Source: an uncultured Paracraurococcus sp.
GTDB lineage: Bacteria > Pseudomonadota > Alphaproteobacteria > Acetobacterales > Acetobacteraceae
Length of the DNA: 44,810 bases
Reading direction: 5' to 3'
NCBI GenBank assembly: GCA_903896535.1
Contig: CAITYE010000108.1
Location: 1 to 44,810, forward strand
Part shown: positions 38,127-44,547 of the stretch, piece by piece
Numbering within the stretch: the first letter of the stretch is position 1
Layout of the letters: each line of letters begins with the position of its first letter
Translations under genes and position numbers: made by a program
The notes under the pieces: model-generated
Databases searched by the model: none
Told to the model about the DNA's origin: nothing
What the model saw: the letters and a program-made list of their open reading frames with translations, nothing else

Positions 38127-38723
38127 TCAGCTTTCTTCGCGCTGCAGGGCATCGAGCGCGGCGGTGAGGCCGCGGAAGGACACCGGCACCTGCTGCGAGT
38201 TGCCCGCCGGGTCGCGCCATTCCAAGCGTGCGCCTTGGTCCGCCGGGCGGGTGCGCAGGCGGCGCAGAAGGGTTTCGTCGCGCAACTCGATTTCGGCAAA
38301 GCAGGCTGGTGGCTGCGGCAGGCAGTGTCGGAAGGGCATGGTCAGGGCCGCCTCATTGCCTTCGAACACCATGCGCACCGGGGTATTGACCAGCACCGCC
38401 GCCGGCAACCGGGCCACCAGCTTCAAGGGATCCGTGCGCTGGGCGCGACCGACAGCGAGGACCGAGACCGGCTGCTGCTGCTGGTTCTGGACGATCTGCA
38501 GGATTTCGCAGAGCTTGCCCGTCGCAGGCGCGGTCGAGCCAGCCGCTGCGGGCCGCGGCACGCATTGCATGCCCCAATCGCCGAACTGCGCCGTGGTCCG
38601 CTCCGGACTATCGCCGGCTGCGGAGGGGGCGGCCGGCGCCTGTGCCATGGCTGCACAGGGCAGGATGGCGCAGAGCACGGCAAGCCAGCCGAAGCGCGAG
38701 CGGTTTCGAATATGCTGCGTCAT
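38127..38723 (-). CDS. Invasion-associated locus B (IalB) family periplasmic protein
   Basis: A 198-residue exported protein with an N-terminal signal peptide (WLAVLCAILPCAAMAQAPA). The IalB pattern is clear: QFGDWGMQCVPR, LCEILQIVQN, LPAAVLVNTPVRM, FRHCLPQPPACFAEIEL and VSFRGLTAALDAL. Conserved Cys residues (MQC, LC, HC, AC) suggest disulfides. IalB relatives are common and mostly uncharacterised in alphaproteobacteria; the name comes from Bartonella. The gene converges on the enolase-superfamily gene. Confidence 0.87.
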   Translation of the reverse strand: MTQHIRNRSRFGWLAVLCAILPCAAMAQAPAAPSAAGDSPERTTAQFGDWGMQCVPRPAAAGSTAPATGKLCEILQIVQNQQQQPVSVLAVGRAQRTDPLKLVARLPAAVLVNTPVRMVFEGNEAALTMPFRHCLPQPPACFAEIELRDETLLRRLRTRPADQGARLEWRDPAGNSQQVPVSFRGLTAALDALQREES

Positions 38724-38823: not shown

Positions 38824-40242
38824 TCATCCGCCGCCGGCGGGGAGGGGCCCGGGCCGACGTACCGTACCGCCCCATTCCTGGACAAGGTCGCTTTCCCGCG
38901 AACCATTTGTGGCCGGATCGGGGGCCTGCACAAGTACGTCCGGTCGGAGCAGGCGAATCAGATCGGCGGGCGTATCCCCACCGAACCGGGCCACCAGATC
39001 GACGCCGGCCAATTCGGCGAGGCGGCCGGCTTCCGGATCGGTATCGGAGAGGGCGATCACGAGCCGGTCGCACCATGACCGGGCTTGGACGATGATATCG
39101 GCTGCCGTTGTCCTGTCGCCGGCCAGGAAACCCACCCGGCACCCACTCCGGCGCCAGCGCTCCACGCGTTCTGCGGCTTCCGCCCTGGTTGCGATCTTAC
39201 GGCTGGCGAGGCGACCCGGGGTCAGGACCTCCAGGAACTCGTCTTCCCGCACCACGGCGATGCCGGTTTTACCCATCGCAATTCCCGCAGCGAGCGCGCC
39301 AAGGCGGGCAACGATGCCGATCGGGAGGCCCGCCGCGGTTGCCGCGGCAGCCACGGCGACCACCGCGTCGCCGGCCCCGGCCGGATCGACCACCTCGGCG
39401 ATATGGCTTGGAAAATGGCTGACCGTCTCGCCGGCCCCCTCATCACTCACCAACGTAACGCCGTCCTGGCCACGGATAACGAGCACCGCGCCGAAGCCGT
39501 ACGCGGCCCGCAGTGCTATCGCTGCCGCGGCAATTTCCTCCTCGGTGCCGACCGGTTGGCCCGTCGCCTCGGCGAGTTCGGCCAGATCGGGCATGAATAG
39601 ATCAGCGCCCGCGTAGCGGGCATGCTCTCCGCCCTTGGGATCGACGAGCACCTTGCGGCCCGCGGTCCGCGCTGCGGCGATGAGTCGCGCCGGGGTATCG
39701 CCGGCCAGCACGCCCTTTCGATAGTCCGAAAGCACCATCACAGCGGTTGCCGCTACCGCATCCGCGGCGATCCGGACCAGGCGCTCGGCCAGCCGTGGAT
39801 GGATGGGGAGCGCCTGCTCGTGATCGGCCCGCAACAATTGCTGGCCGGAGGCGATGAAGCGGGTCTTTGTGGTGGTCGCCCGCCCGCCCTGCACCAGGAG
39901 CCAGGGCTCGACACCGGGCTGCCCGCCGATCAGTCCCGTGAGATCGCTTCCCGCCTGGTCGTCCCCGACCACGGAGACGAAGGCAACCGCCCCGCCAAGC
40001 GCTGTAAGGTTGCGCACCACATTGCCGGCGCCGCCAGGCAAAGCCACTTCGCGTTCCACCGAAAGGACAGGAACCGGCGCTTCGGGGCTGACCCGCTCGA
40101 CTTTCCCATAAACGTATCGATCGAGCATGGCGTCGCCGATCACAAGGACGGCGCCGCGCCGGAGCAGGCGCACCGCGTTGGCGATCTCAGCGGCTAACGG
40201 ACCTTGAAGGCCGGGGCGAGGGGCAGGCGCGGGTCCGTGCAT
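38824..40242 (-). CDS. hldE: HldE-like heptose kinase with degenerate adenylyltransferase domain
   Basis: A 472-residue protein in the HldE (heptose 7-phosphate kinase/heptose 1-phosphate adenylyltransferase) layout. The kinase half (residues about 15-330) looks complete: LPGGAGNVVRNLTALGG, VDPKGGEHARYAGADLF, and the ATP/Mg motif DPAGAGDAVVAVA. The C-terminal half (about 345-472) keeps the outline (VQARSWCDRLVIALSDTD, GDTPADLIRLLRPDVLVQ, DLVQEWGG), but the nucleotide-binding NGCFDxLHxGH is replaced by LAGDRTTAAD, and the RLKGP segment is absent. So the protein may phosphorylate heptose but should not transfer AMP. The ATG at 40242 gives the standard N-terminus; the frame is open to 40407. Confidence 0.8.
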   Translation of the reverse strand: MHGPAPAPRPGLQGPLAAEIANAVRLLRRGAVLVIGDAMLDRYVYGKVERVSPEAPVPVLSVEREVALPGGAGNVVRNLTALGGAVAFVSVVGDDQAGSDLTGLIGGQPGVEPWLLVQGGRATTTKTRFIASGQQLLRADHEQALPIHPRLAERLVRIAADAVAATAVMVLSDYRKGVLAGDTPARLIAAARTAGRKVLVDPKGGEHARYAGADLFMPDLAELAEATGQPVGTEEEIAAAAIALRAAYGFGAVLVIRGQDGVTLVSDEGAGETVSHFPSHIAEVVDPAGAGDAVVAVAAAATAAGLPIGIVARLGALAAGIAMGKTGIAVVREDEFLEVLTPGRLASRKIATRAEAAERVERWRRSGCRVGFLAGDRTTAADIIVQARSWCDRLVIALSDTDPEAGRLAELAGVDLVARFGGDTPADLIRLLRPDVLVQAPDPATNGSRESDLVQEWGGTVRRPGPLPAGGG

Positions 40243-40322
40243 TCCGGGTCCGGTACCGCATGCCGCCCCCGGGGCGCAAGGCAGGCGCCCGCTTGGTCCT
40301 GCCGGCCCCGGCGCTGCGGTCT

Positions 40323-41039
40323 TCACGTCTGCAGGAAGCCTATCCGGTCGTCCTCCAGGACGGCACAGGTCAGCCAGCCACCAAAGCAAGCGCCGGTATC
40401 GATACAAATCCTGTTATGCTGCAATTCTGGCTCCGGCACGGGCGTGTGGCCATGCACCACGACCAGCGGGAAATTCTCTTCCGATGAGAGGAAGGGCTCA
40501 CGGATCCAGAGGAGATCGAGGGGATTTTGTTCGTTGAGAGGCACGCCGGGACGAATCCCGGCATGCACAAAGAGATAATCGCCGGCGATGAAGCGCAGCG
40601 GACAACTGCGGAGAAAGCCGAGATGCGCAGCGGGTAGGTTGGCGACGACTTCCGCAAGCGGCGCGTGGGCCGCGATGCCATAGCTGCCAAGCGTCGCCGA
40701 GCCGCCATTTTCAAGCCATCGCTCAAGCCCGTCGCGCGGCGGTTTCGGCGCACAGAGGTCAAGCATCATCGCCTCATGATTGCCGAGCAAGCAGACCAGA
40801 TTGCGCACCGGGACGGGCGGTGGGCTGAGCAACCGCTCAATGACCGCAGCGCTATCGGGCCCGCGGTCGATCAAATCACCGATATAAAGCAGGGTTGCCT
40901 CCGGCACCGGCCGCCGGCGCAAATCGGCAGCGATCTGGGCATGCAGGCGATCCAGTTGATCGATGCAGCCATGCACATCGCCGATCGCGTAGATCCGCGT
41001 GCCAGGGGGCAGCGCCCCAGGAGAAAGGGTTTCGTTCAT
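40323..41039 (-). CDS. Calcineurin-like metallophosphatase (PP1/ApaH type)
   Basis: A 238-residue metal-dependent phosphatase. The full motif set is visible: GDVHGCIDQLD (residues about 20-30), GDLIDRGPDS, LLGNHEAMMLD, a VHAGIRPG His and the late VVHGHTP. This set is shared by protein serine/threonine phosphatases and symmetrical diadenosine tetraphosphatases; the substrate is not clear. The gene lies 80 bases upstream of hldE in the same direction. In-frame GTG codons at 41045 and 41042 precede the ATG at 41039. Confidence 0.85.
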   Translation of the reverse strand: MNETLSPGALPPGTRIYAIGDVHGCIDQLDRLHAQIAADLRRRPVPEATLLYIGDLIDRGPDSAAVIERLLSPPPVPVRNLVCLLGNHEAMMLDLCAPKPPRDGLERWLENGGSATLGSYGIAAHAPLAEVVANLPAAHLGFLRSCPLRFIAGDYLFVHAGIRPGVPLNEQNPLDLLWIREPFLSSEENFPLVVVHGHTPVPEPELQHNRICIDTGACFGGWLTCAVLEDDRIGFLQT

Positions 41040-41111
41040 CACCACGCCCTAGATTGACCGAGTTGCGCGGTGGCTCAACCCCCATCGTGGCCCGCGCCAG
41101 GAACGCGCCCG

Positions 41112-42107
41112 ATGATGAATCATTTCAATGGCGCCGCTGAGACGGTCGCGACCCCTTTGGCGGCGGTGCTCCGAAAACAGCTACGTGGCGCCGTGGACCA
41201 GGCGGCAATGCTTCTCCCCGACCTGCCCGCGATCCGGGCCGGCGCGGATCGCCGCATGGCGACCGCGCTGCTGGAGGAAGCCGTGCGGATCGGCGGCGGC
41301 ACGGTCTATCGCACCGCCTCAGGCGCCGATCTGCTTTGCGGGACCGCGCGGCCGGCGGCGATCCGGGCCGCGGGTGCCATCTCCCGCTTGCTCGATGGCG
41401 CGCTGGCACCGCCGATCTGGCGACTGCCGGAGGAAAGCGGCGAACTTCTGGCCTGGGCGGCCCCTGAACAGCTGGCCCCCACAGTTCCGCGTCCCGCCAG
41501 CGGCCAGGTCGACCTGGCTGGCTTTCGCCTCCGCCTGGAAGGCCTAGGGGCGGACCAGATATTGGTCTCAAACACCGTGCGAGACGCCGACGGCCAGCCG
41601 GCAGGACGTCAGCTGACGCTACACCGAGAGAGGCTGATCGCAGACCTCGCCGCCTCCGGGTCGGATGCGGATTTGCTGGCGCATGCCGAGGATCGGCTGG
41701 CGCGGCGCCTGTTGCCGGGCCTTGGTGTCTGGGCGGCGAGCGGCCAAGGCTTGCGCCTGATCCCGCTGCCCTTCCAACGGCTGCCGCCGCGCGCCCAGAC
41801 CGGCGGCGCCGTCGGGGTGGTGCCGCTCGCGCTCGCGGACATCGGCGCGCTCGGCGAACAACGCCAGCGGCTGCGCGAACTTGGCTGGCAACTCGCCGTT
41901 GCTGGGCTGGATGCGCATGTCCTGATGCATCTTCAGGCGCTGGCGCTGCCTGCCGACTTGCTTCTACTGCGTTGGTCGCCGGCGTTGGCGGATCGAGACC
42001 TCCCCGCCGCGGCGCCGCGCGAGCGCCTCTTTCTCACCGCCGCCGATGCGGCGGGGCGCGCCTGGGCCGCATGCGCCAGGATCGGGCTGATCGAGAGCGC
42101 GCCATGA
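41112..42107 (+). CDS. Tandem EAL-like degenerate protein, first copy
   Basis: A 331-residue soluble protein I assign only by pattern. Residues about 60-90 (GGTVYRTASGADLLCG) resemble the same area of the next gene product. Residues about 230-320 have the shape of the later half of an EAL barrel: VVPLALADIGALGEQRQRLR, LGWQLAVAGLDAHVLMHLQA, LPADLLLLRWSPAL and RLFLTAADAAGRAWAA. The catalytic EAL, the DD pair and Lys are missing, so it should not hydrolyse c-di-GMP. I infer a binding or scaffold protein. The stop overlaps the next start by 4 bases; the start at 41112 has AGGAACG upstream. Confidence 0.6.
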   Translation: MMNHFNGAAETVATPLAAVLRKQLRGAVDQAAMLLPDLPAIRAGADRRMATALLEEAVRIGGGTVYRTASGADLLCGTARPAAIRAAGAISRLLDGALAPPIWRLPEESGELLAWAAPEQLAPTVPRPASGQVDLAGFRLRLEGLGADQILVSNTVRDADGQPAGRQLTLHRERLIADLAASGSDADLLAHAEDRLARRLLPGLGVWAASGQGLRLIPLPFQRLPPRAQTGGAVGVVPLALADIGALGEQRQRLRELGWQLAVAGLDAHVLMHLQALALPADLLLLRWSPALADRDLPAAAPRERLFLTAADAAGRAWAACARIGLIESAP

Positions 42108-43234
42108 GCACAGCTTATCCGCCCGAACGGCATGCCGATGCCTTGGCGCTCGCACAGCTGCTCCGTGACTCGCTCGCGGCGGGAGCGGAGCGAGAAGCCT
42201 TGCATCTGCGCCTTTCGGAGTTGCCGGCGCAGCTGCGCGTCGGGCCGCGCCGGGAGCTTCTCGACGCGGCATTGGCGCCGGCCTTGCAGCCCGCCCGTAG
42301 CCGGCTTTTCGCGCTGCCGAATGGCGATCTGGTCGCGATCTCGCCACGTCAGGGTGCGCCCATGCGGCAGGCCCAGCGGGCGCTCGGCGCGCTGCTTGGA
42401 ATGCCGTCTGCCGCACCGCTGCTCGCCTTGCCGCGGGATACGCTGACCTTGATGGCCGCGGTGGACGCGGCGATCGCGGCGGACGTCCCCATACCGCCAC
42501 GGTCAAAGGACACAACGCCCGACCCTGCCGCGCCGTTCACCATCGATGATCTGGCGGCGCTTGAGCGGGCGTTGCAGACCGCCGATCTCAGCTTCTTCCT
42601 CCAGACCAGGCCGGTGAACCGGTTGGTTCCCGGCAGCCCGCCCACGCCGGCGTGGGAGGAATTGCGGCTGGATTGGCCAGCCTTGCGCGCTGCCTTGCAA
42701 CTGGACAGCGACCCCGCGACCGCGCCCTGCCTTGGCCGGCGGCTGCGGCGACGCATCGAACAACGCCTGCTGGCGTCGATGGCCGACCCGCTGGAGCTGC
42801 GCCAGCGCGGGCCGATCGGTCTCTGCCTCTCTGCCGCGACGCTGGGCGAGCCAGCGTTTCTGCATATCGATGCCCTGCTCGGGGCGGCGCAGCGGGCGAG
42901 GGTGGTCATCGCCCTGCCGATTGCGGACCTGCTCGCCGACGCCGAGGGGTTTGCCTTCGCCCGCCGCTTTCTGCGGGTCCGCGGCTACCGGGTGGCGCTC
43001 GATTGCCGAGGTGCGCGTGACCTCGCCCTGCTGACCGCCGCCACGCTCGGCGACGATCTGTTGCGCCTGCCATGGGCGCCCGACCTACCGGCGCAAGCGG
43101 CGCTGCTGCCGCCCAATCGCGGCCAGGTCGTCCTGATGGGGGCCGACCGACCGGCCGCTTTGGGGTGGGGCTGGGAGGAGGGGATCAGCCTGTTCGAGGG
43201 CAGGCTGCTCAGCCTCTTCGCGCCCGGGGAGTAG
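42104..43234 (+). CDS. Tandem EAL-like degenerate protein, second copy
   Basis: A 376-residue soluble protein. Residues about 66-95 (RSRLFALPNGDLVAIS, QAQRALGALLG) align in type with the first copy. Residues about 205-376 look like a degenerate EAL barrel: GPIGLCLSAATLGEPAFLHI, ARVVIALPIADLLADAEGFA, RRFLRVRGYRVALDCRGARD, DDLLRLPWAPDL and a C-terminal ALGWGWEEGISLFEGRLL that parallels the EAL ending where the loop reads WG..GI..FQG. The DD metal pair is DC, and the EAL tripeptide is absent. It is likely enzymatically inactive. Probably co-translated with the first copy; ampG begins 32 bases later. Confidence 0.62.
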   Translation: MSTAYPPERHADALALAQLLRDSLAAGAEREALHLRLSELPAQLRVGPRRELLDAALAPALQPARSRLFALPNGDLVAISPRQGAPMRQAQRALGALLGMPSAAPLLALPRDTLTLMAAVDAAIAADVPIPPRSKDTTPDPAAPFTIDDLAALERALQTADLSFFLQTRPVNRLVPGSPPTPAWEELRLDWPALRAALQLDSDPATAPCLGRRLRRRIEQRLLASMADPLELRQRGPIGLCLSAATLGEPAFLHIDALLGAAQRARVVIALPIADLLADAEGFAFARRFLRVRGYRVALDCRGARDLALLTAATLGDDLLRLPWAPDLPAQAALLPPNRGQVVLMGADRPAALGWGWEEGISLFEGRLLSLFAPGE

Positions 43235-43266: not shown

Positions 43267-44547
43267 ATGGCTGAGGCTGAAGCGATTCGACCGTCGCGCT
43301 GGCGCGACCGCAACCTGCTGCTGCTCGGTATCCTCGGCTTCTCGGCTGGGGTACCGCTGCCGCTCGTCGCCGGCCAGGTGCTCCGGCAATGGTTCGCCGA
43401 GAGCAACCTCTCGCTCTCGACCATCGGGCTGACCGCGTTGATTGGGCTGGCCTACGCCAACAAGTTCCTCTGGGCACCCGCGCTTGATGCCCTGCGCCCG
43501 CCAATCACCGCCTGGCTCGGTCAACGCCGCGGCTGGCTGCTGCTGATCCAGGCTGCGCTGGTCGTGACCATCGCTGCCGTGGGTTTCACCGATCCTACGG
43601 CGGGTGCGGCGCGGACGGCGGTGATCGCGGCGTTGGTCGCCTTCCTCTCGGCCAGCCAGGACATCGTTATCGACGCCTATCGGATCGAGCTTCTGGGTGC
43701 GGACGACGAACGCCAGGCCTGGGGACTGACAACCTATGTCTGGGGCTATCGGCTGGCGCTGCTGGCGAGCGGTGCCGGCACCCTTTTGGTGGTCGGCCCG
43801 CTCGGCTGGTCGGGCGCTTATCTGTTCGGCGCTGCGCTGATGCTGCCCGGCCTCATCGCCACCTTGCTGGCGCAGGAGCCGCCGCTGGTGGGGCGCGCGG
43901 GGCCGCTTGGCTGGCGGGGACGCTTGCGCGGCGCGGTTGTGGAGCCGTTCAAGGATTTTCTCCGCCGTCCCAATTGGTTGGCGATCCTGCTGTTCATCGG
44001 GCTGTTCAAGCTGGGTGAGGCGCTGGCGGGCGTGATGACAACGCCGTTCTACCGAGCGCTCGGTTTCTCGCGGGAGGATGTGGCGACCGTCGCCACGGTG
44101 TTCGGCATGCTAGCCACCTTTTGTGGCGCGATGGCGGGCAGCTGGCTGGTCGGGCGGCTGGGCGTCAGACTGGCGCTGGTGATCACCGGTCTCGCGCAGA
44201 TGCTCTCGAACCTGATGTACGTCGCTTTGTATCACGCCGGGCATTCGATGCCGATGCTTTGGCTGCAGGTTGGGATCGAGAGCGGCACCGATGGGCTGGC
44301 TGATGCTGCTTTCCTGACCTGGCTATCCGGCTTGACCAGCCGCAGCTTCACCGCGACGCAATACGCCTTGCTTTCCTCCCTCGCTGCCGTACCGCTGCGC
44401 ACCCTGGGCGCGAGCTCCGGCTGGCTGGCGCAGGAACTGGGCTGGCCCGGCTTCTTCCTGCTAACGACCGCCGCGGCGCTGCCTGCGCTCTGCATCATGC
44501 TGTACCTGCTGCGGGTCCTGCCCAAGACGGATATCAAGGCAGGATAG
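43267..44547 (+). CDS. ampG: AmpG-family muropeptide permease (MFS)
   Basis: A 426-residue MFS transporter with about 12 membrane segments. The AmpG signatures are clear: LGFSAGVPLPLVAGQVLRQW, NLSLSTIGLTALIGLAYANK, SASQDIVIDAYRIELL (the region of the AmpG DAYR motif), ERQAWGLTTYVWGYRLALLA and TATQYALLSSLAAVPLRTLG. It imports GlcNAc-anhydroMurNAc peptides for cell wall recycling. The ATG at 43267 gives the usual N-terminus; the frame stays open to 43072 inside the upstream gene. The 186 bases after the stop hold nothing recognisable until the tRNA. Confidence 0.88.
   Translation: MAEAEAIRPSRWRDRNLLLLGILGFSAGVPLPLVAGQVLRQWFAESNLSLSTIGLTALIGLAYANKFLWAPALDALRPPITAWLGQRRGWLLLIQAALVVTIAAVGFTDPTAGAARTAVIAALVAFLSASQDIVIDAYRIELLGADDERQAWGLTTYVWGYRLALLASGAGTLLVVGPLGWSGAYLFGAALMLPGLIATLLAQEPPLVGRAGPLGWRGRLRGAVVEPFKDFLRRPNWLAILLFIGLFKLGEALAGVMTTPFYRALGFSREDVATVATVFGMLATFCGAMAGSWLVGRLGVRLALVITGLAQMLSNLMYVALYHAGHSMPMLWLQVGIESGTDGLADAAFLTWLSGLTSRSFTATQYALLSSLAAVPLRTLGASSGWLAQELGWPGFFLLTTAAALPALCIMLYLLRVLPKTDIKAG

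Follow-up and report, generated by a model that had tools for sequence, protein, structure and literature searches.

LapD, the top structural match for the proteins described here both in their EAL halves and in dual-domain architecture, is an enzymatically dead receptor of the membrane; it has HAMP and periplasmic output domains as well as an ExLxR pocket. FimX combines a degenerate GGDEF and a degenerate EAL domain with REC/PAS domains and binds c-di-GMP via ExLxR (PMC10333796). The ExLxR motif accompanies c-di-GMP binding in FimX, LapD, and CsrD paralogues (PMC10333796). CsrD, the RNase E specificity factor, is also a degenerate GGDEF-EAL protein; the E. coli type is without the L of ExLxR and fails to bind c-di-GMP (PMC10333796). 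YdiV/RflP and STM1697 have the EAL fold and act by protein contact, and YdiV/STM1697 show neither cleavage nor binding of c-di-GMP (PMC10333796). GGDEF heteromers in E. coli provide examples of degenerate GGDEF/EAL proteins acting via protein contacts (PMC5635695). An EAL domain without the EGVE base is classed as inactive (PMC12900916).

Here we describe a tandem pair of genes, A and B, in a 44,810-nucleotide stretch of DNA (the window) from an uncultured Paracraurococcus sp. of the Acetobacteraceae. Whereas LapD has membrane, HAMP, and output parts and an ExLxR pocket, A and B consist of GGDEF-like and EAL-like domains only, are paired, and lack ExLxR. FimX is a close fold match; however, neither its REC/PAS domains nor its ExLxR was seen in A or B. 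In contrast to CsrD, the A and B proteins have no membrane or HAMP-like part, occur as a tandem pair, and are alphaproteobacterial. The CsrD equivalog model of NCBIfam did not match the window proteins, and three relatives matched it weakly, scoring no more than 15.5 bits where the cut-off is 663. YdiV/RflP and STM1697 differ in being stand-alone, unpaired EAL proteins without a GGDEF-like domain. No description of the A/B pair was found in the literature searched, many subscription papers being beyond reach.

Results

Paralogy, fold, and domain composition

The features of the locus are listed in Table 1. As a preliminary description of this DNA had noted, the two genes overlap. The stop/start overlap, ATGA, would couple their translation, and most A/B relatives likewise have a short overlap or a small gap between the genes.

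Table 1. Features of the A/B locus and its neighbors in the window
Feature	Position	Strand	Description	Evidence
Gene A	41112..42107	+	331 aa, degenerate GGDEF-like + degenerate EAL-like protein, first of pair	ORF; A lineage in tree
A GGDEF-like domain	41151..41471	+	N-terminal, aa 14-120	Secondary structure; Foldseek and VIA alignments to dual-domain proteins spanning aa 2-331; weak collinear GGDEF profile match, E 0.017
A GGDEF-signature remnant	41319..41333	+	S-G-A-D-L, aa 70-74	Profile alignment, residue mapping
A EAL-like barrel	41508..42104	+	aa 133-331, ends early near final strand; 0/9 catalytic residues	VIA Z 13.6 to LapD EAL 3pjt_A
A/B overlap	42104..42107	+	Stop/start, ATGA	ORF coordinates
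Gene B	42104..43234	+	376 aa, degenerate GGDEF-like + degenerate EAL-like protein, second of pair	ORF; B lineage in tree
B GGDEF-like domain	42125..42487	+	N-terminal, aa 8-128	Model, Foldseek, VIA
B GGDEF-signature remnant	42320..42334	+	N-G-D-L-V, aa 73-77	Residue mapping
B EAL-like barrel	42536..43231	+	aa 145-376	VIA Z 15.9 to LapD EAL 3pjt_A
B E186	42659..42661	+	EAL glutamate equivalent; E-L-R-L-D replaces E-x-L-x-R	Residue mapping
B WGWEEGISLFEGRLL	43166..43210	+	Residues 355-369, final EAL strand equivalent; E365 replaces RocR Q372	Residue mapping
HldE/RfaE-like kinase	38824..40407	-	Conserved divergent neighbor, outside the pair; adenylyltransferase half eroded	
Calcineurin-like phosphatase	40323..41045	-	ApaH/PrpE type, conserved divergent neighbor	
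AmpG-type MFS transporter	43267..44547	+	Present where most relatives have ABC-2 ATPase + permease	

A and B are ancient tandem paralogs. Direct BLASTP of the window pair alone gave E=2e-4, and profile-profile comparison of the A family with the B family gave E=8e-54. The latter alignment was collinear over the whole length, with the "GDL" segments and the EAL-like halves of the two proteins in register.

Structure models were made with AlphaFold2 from one alignment of 59 proteins for B and another of 49 for A; mean pLDDT was 90.6 for B and 87.9 for A. Both models contained an EAL-like barrel. In Foldseek searches of the PDB, the top matches were GGDEF-EAL dual-domain proteins, namely MorA, PA0575, PA0861, LapD, and DosP for B and MorA, LapD, and PA0861 for A, with E values to MorA 4rnf of 4.9e-11 (B) and 7.7e-8 (A). 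The structures closest to the EAL halves by VIA were the EAL domains of LapD and FimX. Alignment to LapD EAL 3pjt_A gave an rmsd of 3.4 over 205 residues for B and of 3.1 over 188 residues for A, placing both in the EAL-type barrel fold. B could be aligned with LapD 6pwk_B over 282 residues across both domains (Z 16.3), and the large rmsd of that alignment suggests that, in the model, the domains of B are arranged differently.

Comparisons at the sequence level gave the following results. Neither window protein matched the EAL family PF00563 at E up to 10 or reached the Pfam gathering cut-off. Orthologs did reach the cut-off of 31.3 bits: B of locus L058 scored 41.5, A of L062 scored 36.8, and B of L062 just reached 31.3. 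An EAL profile matched the C-terminal halves at E 1.4e-5 and 2.3e-4, compared to 0.039 or worse for six unrelated control profiles. Within the genome that the window comes from, the B profile matched a bona fide EAL protein (E 3.9e-4); in a sequence search of the PDB it found no EAL chain, whereas with the A profile EAL chains came up at E 0.002-0.05. The C-terminal WGWEEGISLFEGRLL of B, which the preliminary description had recognized as EAL-like, lines up with the "...G.(Q)G" final strand of EAL domains. An unrelated TIM barrel was rejected, both because, in the Foldseek ranking for A, EAL proteins occupy 48 places ahead of any other barrel and because orthologs pass the EAL cut-off. Taken with the tree described below, these comparisons bear out the proposal of a paralogous pair of non-catalytic EAL-fold proteins.

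That proposal missed a second domain. Both models have an extra N-terminal alpha/beta domain of ~110-120 residues, and no domain beyond this one and the EAL barrel was found in them. The whole-length alignments of A and B to GGDEF-EAL structures take in the N-domain. With the GGDEF profile, the N-domain of A gave the match listed in Table 1 and that of B none. Homology of the modeled N-domain to GGDEF thus appears probable mainly from structure, and we call it only "GGDEF-like" because the sequence support is weak. Each protein therefore consists of a degenerate GGDEF-like domain followed by a degenerate EAL barrel. The "GDL" segments, previously reported to match, are indeed homologous, S70-G-A-D-L of A aligning with N73-G-D-L-V of B. 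They occupy the position of the GGDEF signature and therefore fall outside the EAL half. Scans of Pfam and NCBIfam assigned window A and B to no family, and a plasmid tblastn search gave no match.

Catalytic and c-di-GMP-binding residues

Nine catalytic positions of RocR were scored: E175, N233, E265, D295, D296, K316, E352, E355, and Q372. B of the window retains two of them (E186 for E175 and D300 for D295) and A none; both have Asp at E355. The statement that the pair is without any catalytic residues consequently holds for A and not for B. Residue mapping did confirm that the EAL tripeptide and the DD are absent from both proteins. The GG(D/E)EF active-site motif is also absent (NGDLV in B, SGADL in A). 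Catalytic turnover of c-di-GMP by A/B was rejected on these residues; because those needed by a diguanylate cyclase or phosphodiesterase are missing, turnover is, as far as residues can predict it, essentially excluded.

Among the relatives, E175, N233, E265, D295, K316, and Q372 were invariant in 25 orthologs that occur as single genes and in A and B alike of 13 non-Acetobacteraceae pairs, so that six of the nine positions were presumably kept in the family ancestrally. In these distant members, Gly almost always takes the place of D296, Ala or Cys mostly that of the general base E352, and Asp mostly that of E355. The same members have E-x-[FY]-x-[SA] in place of E-x-L-x-R, and the replacements are consistent (E-x-[FY]-x-S, D-G, [AC]-R-x-[DE], and F-Q-G-R). 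To judge from the residues, such a uniform pattern looks like remodeling rather than random decay. In Acetobacteraceae, 22 loci have all six positions in A and three or fewer in B, and none shows the reverse. Oleispirillum naphthae (L171) has a pair in which the pocket is intact. In the clade containing the window, the pockets of A and B are both eroded.

These observations bear on two alternatives. One is that the family retains a site, enzymatic or ligand-binding, remodeled for a different small molecule (another nucleotide or a phosphate ester); A would be the working subunit, B a pseudo-subunit, and the window pair a decayed end state. The invariant E/N/E/D/K/Q set with its consistent replacements in distant members, and its retention by Acetobacteraceae in A and not in B, would be expected if this were so. 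However, canonical EAL chemistry is unlikely in the distant members because E352 and the second Asp, D296, are gone, and of the six positions window A keeps none and window B two; we regard this explanation as doubtful, though worth weighing.

The other alternative is that the dead EAL pockets bind c-di-GMP and signal to a partner, e.g., an ABC exporter, in the manner of LapD and FimX. Their EAL domains being the best structural matches, and the six pocket residues being kept in 25/25 single genes and 13/13 non-Acetobacteraceae pairs, are consistent with such a receptor. ExLxR, the mark of degenerate EAL domains that bind c-di-GMP (PMC10333796), was nevertheless found in none of the 59 B and 49 A proteins; no Arg was among the residues listed at the R position, which were mostly Ser or Ala. 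Moreover, the window copies have lost most of the remaining pocket residues too. Because ExLxR is absent family-wide, canonical c-di-GMP binding of the LapD/FimX type is predicted to be unlikely, and a receptor of this kind seems to us an improbable explanation. The first guess of the preliminary description, a c-di-GMP module, is disfavored by the absence of ExLxR in every member examined and was probably wrongly put first among the possible roles.

A tail with four cysteines closes most A proteins of the Acetobacteraceae, each Cys being present in 37/38; the window and Roseicella copies of A are without it, and window A has also lost the last strand. The tail (e.g., L144:2511-3788) may serve as a zinc or Fe-S site.

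Distribution and history

Of 289 sampled genomes of the window's class, 91 contained a match to the B profile. In the wider phylum outside Alphaproteobacteria, the profile gave only a few weak C-terminal matches. Most of the named relatives belong to the Acetobacteraceae or are other Rhodospirillales-like Alphaproteobacteria. A tree of 97 proteins placed all 36 first-of-pair genes on one side of a single branch (SH-aLRT 94) and the second-of-pair and single genes on the other. We conclude from this division that one old A/B split was followed by side-by-side inheritance, with some genomes having B only. The window copies had their nearest relatives in Roseicella, and the window clade had long branches.

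A B-type gene without an adjacent A was present in 25 sampled alphaproteobacterial loci (L058, L060, L094, L100-L105, and others), several of which adjoin hldE or the phosphatase gene. Because these loci keep B alone, B is not always dependent on A. Where both are present, the distances of A and B were correlated given HldE (partial r 0.80, 0/2000 Mantel permutations; 0.81 with the window clade removed), a correlation of rates that can stem from shared locus history. At one locus, that of Limobrevibacterium gyesilva (L127:9992-11102), B is split into two ORFs by a frameshift or an assembly error; the A, ABC-2, histidine phosphatase, and SYLF genes there look intact.

Neighborhood and the ABC-2 exporter

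A survey of gene order showed a conserved tandem and a conserved exporter context that the preliminary description had missed. The usual order is hldE(-), calcineurin-like phosphatase(-), A(+), B(+), ABC-2 ATPase(+), ABC-2 permease(+), histidine phosphatase(+), and SYLF protein(+). For loci with enough sequence, the partner gene was adjacent in 45/47 and hldE or the phosphatase adjoined in 41/42. The ABC-2 ATPase and permease genes were downstream in 37/54 loci, usually ~160 bases or less from B; the other 17, and the window, are without them. Within the family, 18 genomes had both the pair and the permease, 2 the pair only, 6 the permease only, and 10 neither (Fisher p 0.0014, shared ancestry uncorrected). 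These results suggest that A/B may be linked to the exporter. The six genomes with an ABC-2 permease and no detectable A/B pair (G002, G007, G014, G023, G026, and G034) show that the exporter can exist without the pair.

The match of the window's HldE-like protein to the adenylyltransferase domain is confined to positions 71-125 of 144, and the protein has lost its NGCFDxxHxGH motif; altered HldE adenylyltransferase motifs also occur in many Acetobacteraceae neighbors. The idea that pocket erosion tracks erosion of these motifs was unsupported for A (p 0.45), and lineage and truncated HldE loci confound the value for B (p 0.003). Also near the locus, at 38127-38723 (-) of the window, is a gene for an IalB-family (PF06776) protein.

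Because third-codon-position divergence between the window pair and Roseicella (0.51-0.56) exceeds that at positions 1 and 2 (0.30-0.39), coding of A and B has been maintained. This result bears on whether the locus is in decay, the window pair becoming non-functional after loss of the exporter. Features that would fit decay are the long branches of the window clade, the loss of the last strand and Cys tail from A, the eroded adenylyltransferase half of the adjoining HldE, and the exporter permease itself, no homolog of which was found in the window's genome with a profile that was positive in 31/60 relatives. Yet the frames are open, the ATGA coupling is preserved, and the excess of change is at third positions; in addition, Roseicella relatives (L179, L184) with equally eroded pockets still have ABC genes nearby. 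We consider decay of the locus very unlikely.

Discussion

Because their active sites are lost, and because the pair is ancient, kept together, and often located beside an ABC exporter, A and B are most likely a two-part binding or scaffold device and not an enzyme. The conserved tandem order, the correlated rates, and the asymmetric loss of site residues support a putative heterodimer.

We favor, with modest confidence, the following mechanism as the best explanation as a whole. A and B would associate as a heteromer that works through binding and conformational coupling instead of catalysis. The ancestral A, together with B in the least derived pairs, would have had a remodeled EAL pocket for a ligand that was probably other than c-di-GMP, and B would then have turned into a pseudo-subunit. 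The complex may have served as a regulator or scaffold of an envelope process, with the neighboring ABC-2 exporter as a plausible candidate. In the window lineage, where both pockets are eroded and the exporter genes are gone, the pair is for these reasons most likely an interaction module; it may now act purely through protein-protein contacts, in principle like YdiV or CsrD.

A more specific history can be proposed, which we hold only tentatively and think rather unlikely in its entirety. In an alphaproteobacterial branch of GGDEF-EAL proteins, the EAL pocket might have been rebuilt to a set pattern (E-x-[FY]-x-S, N, E, D-G, K, [AC]-R-x-[DE], Q) for a ligand other than c-di-GMP, and a subsequent duplication might have yielded a working A and a pseudo-subunit B controlling the ABC-2 exporter, with the window representing a late, pocket-less state.

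Degenerate GGDEF-EAL proteins have usually been studied singly, as c-di-GMP receptors. A/B is an old, strictly ordered pair without the c-di-GMP motif, and its pocket is invariant in many members and was lost first in one subunit. Because the motif is gone, the pocket is kept, and one subunit loses it first, A/B offers a natural test of how a second-messenger enzyme becomes a binding or scaffold device. It also points to a function for proteins in the window's lineage that match no Pfam or NCBIfam family.
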